Below, one piece after another: positions 11,238 to 26,935 of a stretch of 33,216 bases of DNA. A program made the translations under genes and the position numbers. Source of the DNA: Aquifex sp. (GTDB lineage Bacteria; Aquificota; Aquificia; Aquificales; Aquificaceae). Position 1 is the stretch's first letter, and each line of letters opens with the position of its first letter. The stretch covers positions 1 to 33,216 of the forward strand of contig QNXQ01000143.1 in NCBI GenBank assembly GCA_003978875.1, written 5' to 3'. The notes under the pieces were generated by a model. That model ran no database searches. It had not been told where the DNA came from and saw only the letters and a program-made list of their open reading frames with translations.

Positions 11238-12263
11238 TTATTCTCTTTCTTTTTCTGTCTTTATCTCTTCATACTTTTTCCACAACCCTTCTTTTAATTC
11301 CTCTAATCCCTCTCCGGTTAACGCGGAAATTGCGAAAAACTCGTATCCTTTTTCTTTAAAGTAGTTCTTTAATTCTTCAATTAATCCCTTATCACTCAAA
11401 GCATCTATCTTATTGGCAACGACAATCTGCGGTTTTTTAACAAGTTCCTGGCTATAAAGAGCAAGTTCTTTATTTATAGCTTCAAAGGCATGTATAGGGT
11501 CTCTTTCCCTGAAATCGGAAACGTCTATTATATGGGCTAAAAATTTAGTTCTCTCTATGTGCCTTAAAAATTCATAGCCTAAGCCTGCACCTTTGTGGGC
11601 ATCTTCTATCAGTCCGGGGATATCGGCTATTATCAGTCTTCTGTCCCAATCAAGCTCCATAACTCCCAAATTTGGACTCAATGTGGTAAAGGGATAGTCC
11701 GCTATTTTTGGATTTGCTCTGGTTAATCTGGCAAGAAGTGTAGATTTTCCTGCATTAGGAAAACCTATTAAGCCTACATCGGCTATAAGTTTGAGTTCTA
11801 AAATTATCCATCTCTCTTCGCCCGGCTCACCCTTTTCCGCATAAGTAGGTGCTTGATTAGTAGGAGTTGCAAATCTGGCATTTCCTCTTCCTCCCTTTCC
11901 GCCTCTTGCCACTATACACGTTTGTCCATCTTTAACGAGGTCGCAGATAATTTCTCCCGTCTGGGCATCTTTTACTACGGTTCCAACGGGAACATAAATA
12001 ATAAGGTCTTCTCCTTTCTTACCGTGCATTTTCTTCCCTTTGCCGGGTTCACCGTCTTCAGCTATAAAGTGTTTTTTGTATTTAAAGTCAAGAAGTGTAT
12101 GCTTTGAAGATGTAGCTACCAAGATAACATTTCCACCTCTCCCACCGTCTCCGCCTGCAGGTCCTCCCTTCGGTCTATACTTTTCCCTCAGGAATGCAAC
12201 CGCTCCGTCTCCTCCTTTTCCTGCACGCACGTAGATTTTTACCCGGTCTATAAACTTTTCCAT
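11238..12263 (-). CDS. obg: GTPase Obg/CgtA
   Basis: Glycine-rich Obg fold (GGDGAVAFLREKYRPKGGPAGGDGGRGG), G1 GFPNAGKST, DIPGLIEDAHKGAGLG. Confidence 0.96.
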   Translation of the reverse strand: MEKFIDRVKIYVRAGKGGDGAVAFLREKYRPKGGPAGGDGGRGGNVILVATSSKHTLLDFKYKKHFIAEDGEPGKGKKMHGKKGEDLIIYVPVGTVVKDAQTGEIICDLVKDGQTCIVARGGKGGRGNARFATPTNQAPTYAEKGEPGEERWIILELKLIADVGLIGFPNAGKSTLLARLTRANPKIADYPFTTLSPNLGVMELDWDRRLIIADIPGLIEDAHKGAGLGYEFLRHIERTKFLAHIIDVSDFRERDPIHAFEAINKELALYSQELVKKPQIVVANKIDALSDKGLIEELKNYFKEKGYEFFAISALTGEGLEELKEGLWKKYEEIKTEKERE

Positions 12264-12333
12264 ACCAGAGAATTAAATATATCTCTTCCTAGTCTCTGAG
12301 AAAGTCTTGAATTTCAATAGCTTAAGGTATGTG

Positions 12334-12754
12334 TTATCCACAATTTATCCACATTTTGTCCACAATTTATCCACATTATTCACATGTTTTATCCACACAA
12401 TTTCACAAACGGTTGAAAATCAAGGGTTAAACAATTATCCACGTATGGCTACATAAATTATTTATAGCTCTGCATTTTTCCGACAGAATGTGGATAACCA
12501 TCTCTGTAGATGTGGATAGTTTATAAGTCATTTATAAATCTGAACATTTTTTACGGATAAAAATTCCGGGATATAAAGCACTTATGAAGCAAATGTGGAT
12601 AATGTGGATAAGTTTCGTAAATACTTCATAGTTCTGTACTTTTGTACTAACGAAAAATCACGCTTTATAAAACACTTACGATAACAATGTGGATAAAATG
12701 TGGATAAAATTTCTGCAAATGCCTGGAAATCAAAAAGTTTTATTTTTGTCCACA
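12334..12754. other. oriC: Candidate chromosomal replication origin (oriC): array of DnaA-box-like 9-mers
   Basis: + orientation TTATCCACA or close: 12334, 12345, 12356 (TTGTCCACA), 12367, 12376 (TTATTCACA), 12389, 12435 (TTATCCACG), 12746 (TTGTCCACA). - orientation TGTGGATAA: 12489, 12511 (TGTGGATAG), 12594, 12603, 12688, 12699. AT-rich spacers lie between. Confidence 0.82.
12525..12711. repeat. ~94-bp imperfect tandem repeat (2 units) in the candidate origin, each ending in a pair of TGTGGATAA boxes
   Basis: TATAAATCTGAACATTTTTTACGGATAAAAATTCCGGGATATAAAGCACTTATGAAGCAAATGTGGATAATGTGGATAA versus CATAGTTCTGTACTTTTGTACTAACGAAAAATCACGCTTTATAAAACACTTACGATAACAATGTGGATAAAATGTGGATAA. Offset is 94 bp at both TCTG (12539/12633) and the first box (12594/12688). 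Confidence 0.75.
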
Positions 12755-12802
12755 GGATTTTTGGAGCCTTATTATTTTTCTTTTAGATACAAAATAATAT
12801 TT

Positions 12803-13279
12803 ATGGAAATAAATAGAGAAGAAATAGAAAAGAAGATTAGGGAGATTGTGGAACCAATTATCAGAGGAATGGGGTTTAAACTTTTTGACGTTGAGTTTAA
12901 ACCTGAAGGTAGAGGATGGGTTCTGAGAATTATAGCTGATAAAGAAGGTGGAATTACTATAAAGGATTGTGAGACTATAAGCAAGAAAATAAGTGCACTC
13001 TTAGATGTTGAAGATATTATTCCGTTTTCTTACCTCCTTGAAATAACCTCACCGGGTCTTACAAGACCTCTTACTAAGGTAGAGCATTACGATTTTTTCA
13101 AAGGGAGACTGGTTAAGTTGATTCTTAAGGAGCCTATAGAGGGAAAGAGGGAAGTTGTAGGACTTATAGAAGATGTGAGAAACGGTATAATAGATATTCG
13201 CGATAAGGAAAAGGGTGATATCCTACATATTCCCTTTTCCGCTATAGCCAAAGGAAGACTGGAGATAGAGGGATGGTAA
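12803..13279 (+). CDS. rimP: Ribosome maturation factor RimP
   Basis: REIVEPIIRGMGFKLFDVEFKPEGRGWVLRIIADKEGGITIKDCETISKKISALLDVED…LEITSPGLTRPL. The ORF-track start at 12689 lies inside the DnaA-box array, so ATG 12803 is preferred. Confidence 0.93.
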   Translation: MEINREEIEKKIREIVEPIIRGMGFKLFDVEFKPEGRGWVLRIIADKEGGITIKDCETISKKISALLDVEDIIPFSYLLEITSPGLTRPLTKVEHYDFFKGRLVKLILKEPIEGKREVVGLIEDVRNGIIDIRDKEKGDILHIPFSAIAKGRLEIEGW

Positions 13280-18358: not shown

Positions 18359-19039
18359 ATGAAAGCCATAAAGGAGATAAAGAGTGTAATACCACATATA
18401 GAAAAATACGTTAAACGAAGAATGGAAGAATTTGAGAAATTAGGAATAGAAGGTCATACCCATTACGATTTTAGACCGTTTCTTGACGTGAGTTTCGAGG
18501 CGGGAATATTTTCGGAACTATCTTTCTGTATCCTTACCGCGAATTCGTCGGCTTCTCTTGGGATAAAGATACAAGCCTATCTCGGAGAAGAGGGTTTTAT
18601 GGGTAAAAGCTTAGAAGAGCTTACGAATATTTTTAAGAATTTCGGGCATAGGTATGCTCAGCAAAGAGCTGAAAGAGTAGTAGAAGCCAGGAGTAAATTT
18701 AATGAGATAAAAAAACTTTTGGAAAGAGAAAAAAATCCAAAGGTTATTCGACAGCTTCTTGCCGATACAAAGTCTCCTTACAAAATTAAAGGGTTTGGCT
18801 ATAAGGAAGCATCACACTTTTTGAGGAATATAGGCTTCAAAGAAGTAGCTATAGTAGACAGGCATATATCCCGATTTCTTATGGAAAATGGACTCCTCAG
18901 ACAGGTAAAAACAATTACACCTAAGGTTTACATTGAAGCCGAAAAGGCTTTAGAAGATTTAGCTTCTCATCTGAACCTTACTCTGGGTGAGCTAGACCTT
19001 TATATCTTCTACATAAAAACGAAAAAAGTTTTGAAATGA
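18359..19039 (+). CDS. N-glycosylase/DNA lyase, Ogg2-like 8-oxoguanine DNA glycosylase (HhH)
   Basis: FSELSFCILTANSSASLGIK … SPYKIKGFGYKEASHFLRNIGFKEVAIVDRHISRFL, HhH-GPD with catalytic Lys/Asp. Confidence 0.87.
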   Translation: MKAIKEIKSVIPHIEKYVKRRMEEFEKLGIEGHTHYDFRPFLDVSFEAGIFSELSFCILTANSSASLGIKIQAYLGEEGFMGKSLEELTNIFKNFGHRYAQQRAERVVEARSKFNEIKKLLEREKNPKVIRQLLADTKSPYKIKGFGYKEASHFLRNIGFKEVAIVDRHISRFLMENGLLRQVKTITPKVYIEAEKALEDLASHLNLTLGELDLYIFYIKTKKVLK

Positions 19040-25261: not shown

Positions 25262-26935
25262 ATGCCTAAAAGGACTGATATAAGAAAAATACTGATTATC
25301 GGGTCAGGACCTATTGTAATAGGCCAAGCTGCGGAGTTCGACTACTCCGGAACGCAGGCATGCAAAGCTCTAAAACAAGAAGGTTATGAAGTAATTCTTG
25401 TGAACTCAAATCCTGCAACTATAATGACAGACCCCGAAATTGCCGAAAAAACGTATATTGAACCCCTTGTTCCGGAAATTGTGGAAGAAATAATAAAAAA
25501 AGAGAGACCCGATGCACTTCTCCCTACCTTAGGAGGACAAACGGGTTTAAATCTTGCCGTTGAACTCTATGAGTCCGGAGTGCTTGATAGATACGGAGTA
25601 GAGCTAATAGGTGCTAACTACGAAGCTATAAAGAAAGGTGAAGACAGAGAGCTGTTTAAAAAGGCTATGGAAAATATAGGTTTAAAAGTCCCGGAAAGTG
25701 CAATAGTGCGTTCCATGGAAGAAGGACTACACGCCATAGAAAAAATAGGTTTCCCCGTGATTTTAAGACCTGCTTTTACTCTGGGAGGAACGGGTAGCTC
25801 TATAGCTTACAATATCGAAGAGTTTAAAGAAAAATTAAAAATAGCCTTAGAGACATCTCCCATTCATGAGGTTCTTCTTGATAAATCCTTAATCGGTTGG
25901 AAGGAAATAGAATTTGAGGTTGTAAGGGATAAAGCGGACAACGTAATTATAGTTTGTGCAATAGAGAATTTTGACCCTATGGGAGTTCATACGGGAGATT
26001 CAATTACTGTAGCACCTACGCAAACCCTTACCGATAAAGAATACCAGATGCTCAGAGACGCGGCTATAGCCGTAATCAGAGAAGTAGGAGTAGATACCGG
26101 CGGGTCAAATATACAGTTTGCCCTTTCTCCAGAGAGCGGAGAGTTTTACGTGATAGAAATGAATCCGAGGGTTTCACGTTCTTCTGCCCTTGCCTCAAAA
26201 GCTACAGGATTTCCTATAGCTAAAGTTGCGGCTAAACTTGCCGTTGGCTATACCCTTGACGAGCTGAAAAACGACATAACCAAGTTCACCCCTGCGTCTT
26301 TCGAACCTTCAATAGACTATGTAGTAGTGAAAATTCCCAGGTTTGACTTTCCTAAGTTTCCCGAAGCCAATAGAACTCTCAATACTATGATGAAATCAGT
26401 CGGTGAAGTTATGGCCATAGGTAGAACCTTCAAGGAAGCACTTTTAAAAGCCATAAGAAGCCTTGAATTGGACAGGTACGGACTGGCTTTCCCGAAACTC
26501 AATAATGTGGATAAATTTGAACTTGAAAGAAACCTTATAAATCCTAACGACCAGAGGCTTTGGTATATAGCGGAAGCTTTCAGGAGGAATTATACGGTAG
26601 ATGAAGTGTATGAGCTTACGAAAGTGGACAAATGGTTTTTATACAATATAGAGGAAATAGTGAAGTTTGAAGAAATCTTGCAAAAGGAAGAGCTTTCCCC
26701 TGAAATACTGAGAGAAGCAAAAGAGATGGGTTATTCGGATTACGAGATAGCAAAAATAAAGGGTATGACCGAGGAAGATGTTAGGAATTTAAGGAAATCT
26801 TACGGAATAAGACCTTGCTTTAAAGGAGTTGATACCTGTGCAGGAGAATTCGTGGCTTACACACCCTACTATTACTCTTCCTATGAGGCACCCTACTATA
26901 CCATAGACGGTAAAGAAATTCTTGATGAAGATTAA
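25262..26935 (+). CDS. carB: Carbamoyl-phosphate synthase large subunit, N-terminal half (split gene)
   Basis: [44 protein letters not shown] … ends after the oligomerisation region (…YYYSSYEAP) at 557 aa, about half of normal CarB. Confidence 0.94.

Follow-up and report, generated by a model that had tools for sequence, protein, structure and literature searches.

The intergenic region upstream of rimP-nusA in an Aquifex species is very probably the chromosomal replication origin (oriC), lying away from dnaA. The window analysed, meaning the whole stretch of 33,216 nucleotides, is contig C18 of a 218-contig, 1.68-Mb draft genome (a MAG) with Aquifex as its nearest named relatives, and the candidate oriC occupies the gap between obg (- strand) and rimP (+ strand) at 12264–12802, assigned on the basis of DnaA boxes, gene calls, conservation in 7/7 Aquifex species, and its being the sole box-pair cluster. 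The region has the features of an oriC, namely a dense intergenic box cluster that is single per chromosome, conserved, and accompanied by a low-stability element. As an oriC, it would be a common type of element at a location that was not expected; the array of a second motif, M, and a joint switch of boxes and DnaA in one species go beyond the ordinary. Neither of these, nor the likely role of the 12746 box next to a DnaA-trio run, was part of the original prediction. No description of an oriC for Aquifex or Aquificales was found in the open literature searched.

DnaA boxes upstream of rimP

The gap, first put at about 540 bp, measured 539 bp. Its left neighbour is obg, encoding GTPase ObgE/CgtA (11238–12263, - strand; NF008955, TIGR02729), and its right neighbour is rimP (12803–13279, + strand), which adjoins the cluster in 7/7 Aquifex species. 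No gene was found inside the gap, and an ORF starting at 12689 was rejected as a separate gene, being a GTG extension of rimP. Because an Rfam scan gave two matches, both sub-threshold, the gap holds no known RNA element, and a scan for promoters and terminators gave nothing above chance expectation. A gene of the 8-oxoguanine DNA glycosylase family (Ogg-HhH) is also present in the window at 18359–19039.

All 14 DnaA-box-like 9-mers of the original prediction were recovered with the same positions and strands. Within 421 bp, nine were exact copies of TTATCCACA, at 12334, 12345, 12367, and 12389 on the + strand and at 12489, 12594, 12603, 12688, and 12699 on the - strand, and five carried one mismatch, at 12356 (TTGTCCACA), 12376 (TTATTCACA), 12435 (TTATCCACG), 12511 (CTATCCACA), and 12746 (TTGTCCACA). 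The predicted division into two opposed blocks was likewise borne out, the order being six + boxes, a weak + box at 12435, six - boxes, and one + box at 12746. The left block (12334–12397, + strand) comprised the boxes at 12334, 12345, 12356, 12367, 12376, and 12389, the first four at an 11-bp pitch. The weak box TTATCCACG (12435–12443, + strand) belonged to this species, the alignment giving it no counterpart even in the nearest relatives. In the box scan and alignment, the right block consisted of three inverted pairs on the - strand, at 12489–12519 (boxes 12489 and 12511), 12594–12611 (12594 and 12603), and 12688–12707 (12688 and 12699). The outer box TTGTCCACA (12746–12754, + strand) faced a DnaA-trio-like run across a 14-bp spacer and is a candidate loading box of an unwinding site.

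A box density above chance had also been claimed, and the window contained 25 sites with one mismatch or fewer. Shuffled windows averaged 7.8 +/- 3.0 such sites and never exceeded 19, so that 0/100 reached the observed count. The whole draft genome contained 44 exact boxes, nine of them in the obg-rimP gap; if the remaining 35 set the background rate, the gap should contain 0.011 exact boxes, and the Poisson P for at least nine was 7e-24. Elsewhere in the draft genome, there were never more than two exact boxes within 500 bp. A lone exact TTATCCACA on the - strand at 26506–26514 stood outside the cluster, without neighbours.

The box array was present upstream of rimP-nusA in 7/7 Aquifex species. 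Of the predicted site between obg and rimP, the rimP-nusA side thus proved constant, whereas obg adjoined the array in only 5/7 species; because G001 and G004 have other genes in its place, the array is independent of obg. Identity to the window was 84% in box columns, 72% in M columns, and 62% in the other columns of the gap. A repeated element at 12307–12317, 12413–12423, and 12725–12733 (TTGAATTTCAA, TTGAAAATCAA, and GGAAATCAA) flanked the box blocks, resembled the IHF consensus, and was conserved in most Aquifex species.

A paired-box pattern of two boxes within 30 bp (TTATCSACA, TTWTCSACA) was run on 61 genomes, and in every one of the seven from Aquifex its matches were confined to the region upstream of rimP. 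Six Aquifex genomes were also searched with a looser pair pattern modelled on the E. coli consensus, which matched the same single region, and reversed-pattern controls gave zero matches in the seven genomes. Equally dense clusters at other loci, named beforehand as a sign against an origin, were found in none of the Aquifex genomes with these two patterns, where G001 is a complete same-genus chromosome of 1,551,335 bp and the other six are drafts of 82–93% completeness in which a further cluster may have escaped detection. Samples of G001 away from the locus, 468 kb in total, had at most three one-mismatch boxes in any 540 bp, compared to nine at the locus.

The M motif and the candidate unwinding site

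Between the box pairs, in this region as in other Aquificota, a second motif, M, recurred (13-bp consensus TATCAATAACTTA). A matrix for M was derived from 47 sites taken from 14 non-Aquifex clusters; because the regular expression that collected these sites was modelled in part on Aquifex, its use on Aquifex is not an entirely blind test. At 7 bits, the matrix scored 5, 6, 2, 6, and 4 M sites in the gaps of G000, G001, G004, G005, and G006, respectively, where about 0.1 were expected. The distance from the 3′ end of M to a box was most commonly 4–9 bp. In the window, the same matrix placed M sites at 12312–12324 (TTTCAATAGCTTA, + strand, 12.2 bits), at 12454–12466 (TATAAATAATTTA, - strand, weak at 5.2 bits), at 12524–12536 (TATAAATGACTTA, - strand, 11.8 bits), just before and just after the 12594/12603 box pair at 12572–12584 (TATAAAGCACTTA, + strand, 10.7 bits) and 12618–12630 (TATGAAGTATTTA, - strand, 7.9 bits), and just before the 12688/12699 box pair at 12666–12678 (TATAAAACACTTA, + strand, 10.3 bits).

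The IHF consensus of E. coli is WATCAANNNNTTR. Outside Aquifex, the M consensus TATCAATAACTTA conforms to it, whereas the Aquifex forms (TATRAANNACTTA) miss one base, and there were zero strict matches to WATCAANNNNTTR in the gap of the window. The Aquificales genomes searched contained one to five HU/IHF-family genes each, and most had two or more besides an HU-like one. Two extra Aquifex proteins of this family were nearest to the IHF beta and alpha models, at scores below the cut-offs, and 'IHF-like' for a putative M-site binder is a lead and not a statement of membership. Five genomes with one HU/IHF gene had 0–2 M sites, and those with at least two genes had 2–14. The number of M sites thus appeared to track the HU/IHF gene count, a suggestive relation that is not independent of phylogeny and is broken by g15, with three HU/IHF genes and no M sites. 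The clearest case of the second motif was seen in a same-order genome, G052, the cluster of which (L189, 5293–6389) contained TTTTTCAATAACTTA-like sites about 12 times among its DnaA boxes.

The outer box at 12746 was followed by the 14-bp spacer GGATTTTTGGAGCC and then by the run TTATTATTTTTCTTT (12769–12783, + strand), which a pattern search located as 5′-YTD-3′ repeats (complement 3′-NAN-5′). Its trios read TTA TTA TTT TTC TTT, the one TTC departing from YTD. By nearest-neighbour energies, duplex stability in the 33-kb window was lowest over the 60 bp at 12768–12827, a stretch that overlaps the start of rimP (12803) and is a candidate duplex-unwinding element. The published search for the bacterial origin unwinding system (BUS) accepts a box with two or fewer mismatches, a spacer of 16 bp or less, and at least three 3′-NAN-5′ trios (PMC8287927); the box TTGTCCACA at 12746 has one mismatch, its spacer is within the limit, and TTATTATTTTTCTTT supplies the trios. 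Our own box-spacer-trio pattern, used to search clusters across Aquificota, found this arrangement in 17 of the 28 box clusters and in none of 726 kb of background (258 kb of flanks and 468 kb of G001). The trio run was visible in 7/7 Aquifex species, and a recognisable box stood beside it in four. Because this box is degenerate in G001, G005, and G006, the presumed unwinding mechanism would not be uniform. The incC/BUS region of Bacillus subtilis shares the succession of DnaA box, spacer, and trio run (PMC6669920; PMC8287927). In the species of the window, however, the spacer of 14 bp is longer than the usual 10–13 bp of BUS (maximum 16) and the first trios are TTA and not CTA; among Aquifex, the box is degenerate in 3/7 species, and the cluster is not beside dnaA.

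In many other Aquificota, the genome had a single main cluster, in most cases accompanied by the M motif. The clusters of other genera, with boxes and mostly with M sites and trios, adjoined unrelated genes and not rimP, and no box cluster was found at rimP-nusA in those genera. Conservation in other Aquificales, to which the original prediction had looked, thus held for the position upstream of rimP in all Aquifex, whereas other genera with a cluster carried it at other loci. In genomes where both were located, dnaA was not beside the cluster. The Aquificaceae genera g2, g6, g8, g9, g10, and g11 showed no cluster with pairs of TTATCSACA, TGTGNAWAA, or TTATNNACA, with not every genus run with every pair pattern. 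A different origin-like layout was observed in genus g12 (L202, L204, L205, and L206), with inverted pairs TTATCCACA N TGTGGATAA and repeats of TTGACAT and CTTACTCTCCCAA spread across about 1 kb; M sites were not clear in this layout, and these genomes have one HU/IHF gene. In genus g5 (L173, L174, and L175), an HU/IHF-family gene lay some 2 kb from the cluster, which stood upstream of a gene that, by eye, resembles an NtrC-type regulator.

Joint change in the box array and the DnaA of G005

The boxes of G005 read TTATCGACA and not TTATCCACA. The dnaA gene of this species is intact, and the recognition helix of its product reads KNHSTVVHA compared to KDHTTVIHA in the other species, with one residue fewer in the recognition loop, before the helix motif. 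The Asp replaced by N is equivalent to D433 of E. coli DnaA, a highly conserved residue that contacts bases (PMC8235120). D433 contacts box position 7 (PMC8235120; PMC5043019), and the base changed in the G005 boxes is the adjacent position 6. Paired TTATCGACA boxes were found in no other Aquificota genome (136 genomes searched). The joint change, which is one evolutionary event and hence one data point, provides good, though indirect, evidence that DnaA would bind the array. In G015 and G022, the D433 equivalent of DnaA (L166 and L165) is Ser (KSHSSVNHS), and the TTATCCACA cluster was not found there; the boxes of these two genomes may differ from TTATCCACA. The dnaA gene of G004 is apparently split, with parts on contigs C218 and C62.

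Position relative to dnaA and the proposed origin function

An origin away from dnaA, as originally predicted, is the best-supported reading: dnaA is on another contig of the draft genome, and in G001 it is 42 kb from the cluster, at 209 kb compared to about 167.0–167.3 kb. Adjacency to dnaA, which is common in oriC regions and does not define them, is absent here. As quoted in a 2011 paper (PMC3219657), DoriC places the oriC of A. aeolicus at 209 kb; this entry concerns the same genus and the same claimed function and differs in place (209 kb vs about 167 kb in G001), and the dnaA position of G001 agrees with the 209 kb quoted there for A. aeolicus VF5. At 200–212 kb around dnaA of G001, however, seven one-mismatch boxes were scattered over 12 kb without a cluster, and no boxes were found within a 3.5 kb stretch around dnaA in the genome of the window. 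The 209 kb place, in the form in which that paper quotes it, thus appears to be wrong. Sampling of G001 at 40 places showed no replication skew, whether GC skew was taken overall or at fourfold sites with the coding strands treated separately; earlier work likewise reported that A. aeolicus shows no such pattern (PMC3219657; PMC4070872). Because the sampled G001 has no replication skew, GC skew cannot decide the position of the origin.

Among the alternatives, the one that survives best, though improbable, is that the region is a DnaA-titration or recycling site of the datA/DARS type, which would bind DnaA and an IHF-like protein without initiation, the origin being elsewhere, perhaps beside dnaA. 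The datA and DARS2 sites of E. coli combine DnaA boxes with IHF sites, a pairing that resembles the one found here, and the 209 kb quoted from DoriC would agree with an origin beside dnaA. However, a titration site needs a second cluster as the origin, and two patterns revealed none in the complete G001, including the 200–212 kb stretch near dnaA; datA coexists with oriC and is additional to the oriC cluster, whereas no second box cluster was found in Aquifex. Furthermore, the trio run and the unstable DNA fit an unwinding site. It is less probable still that the region is regulatory, with DnaA controlling transcription of obg and rimP-nusA, although a secondary effect on promoters is possible. 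DnaA regulates some promoters, and the region sits between divergent genes, but the boxes far exceed the need of a promoter, the array survives the replacement of obg in two species, and in other genera the box-M-trio arrangement stands beside unrelated genes while rimP-nusA is without a cluster.

Repeat arrays also mark plasmid origins, and an origin of an integrated plasmid or mobile element would show them as well; such an origin is nevertheless very improbable, as the array occupies the same place by core genes in seven species, its repeats are chromosomal DnaA boxes that track the DnaA change in G005, no initiator gene was found among the scanned window genes, and a replication gene and element ends have so far been absent around the cluster. 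Chance clustering in AT-rich DNA is practically negligible, being refuted by the conservation in 7/7 species together with the shuffles and the Poisson P given above.

A chromosomal oriC thus remains the preferred reading, and it can be set beside known origins. Thermotoga maritima uses a divergent, longer DnaA box, whereas the Aquifex box is the E. coli-type TTATCCACA. The T. maritima oriC, likewise that of a thermophile, combines an unwinding element with a region on which DnaA oligomerizes directionally (PMC10316083). Like E. coli oriC, the Aquifex region has opposed left and right DnaA-box arrays, an AT-rich element at one end that would serve for unwinding, and a position not beside dnaA, and its IHF-like M sites may correspond to the IHF site of E. 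coli oriC (PMC10316083; PMC6669920). In contrast to E. coli oriC, its boxes, about 14 and for the most part strong, are packed into 421 bp and accompanied by a DnaA-trio run, and several IHF-like M sites stand beside box pairs where E. coli has one IHF site.

From these features we propose the following model of initiation in this Aquifex species. DnaA would bind the two opposed TTATCCACA arrays, on the + strand at the left and on the - strand at the right, and the 11-bp box pitch may allow filaments to form. DnaA may be loaded onto the adjoining trio strand from the outer + box at 12746, and the AT-rich duplex would open at about 12768–12827 for helicase loading. The M sites between box pairs may be bent, perhaps by an HU/IHF-type protein, folding the complex, and replication would fire at the locus upstream of rimP. 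We tentatively extend this model, with somewhat less than even confidence, to a twofold claim: that in the origins of much of the Aquificota a dedicated HU/IHF-type protein, in lineages beyond those with recorded IHF, recognises the TATCAATAACTTA array, and that the initiator and boxes of one Aquifex species have switched together (TTATCCACA to TTATCGACA, DnaA D433N). Among bacterial initiators, the DnaA of A. aeolicus serves as a structural model, and a defined origin fragment would let this model initiator be studied on its own origin. The switch in G005 is a natural experiment on the joint evolution of an initiator and its numerous binding sites.
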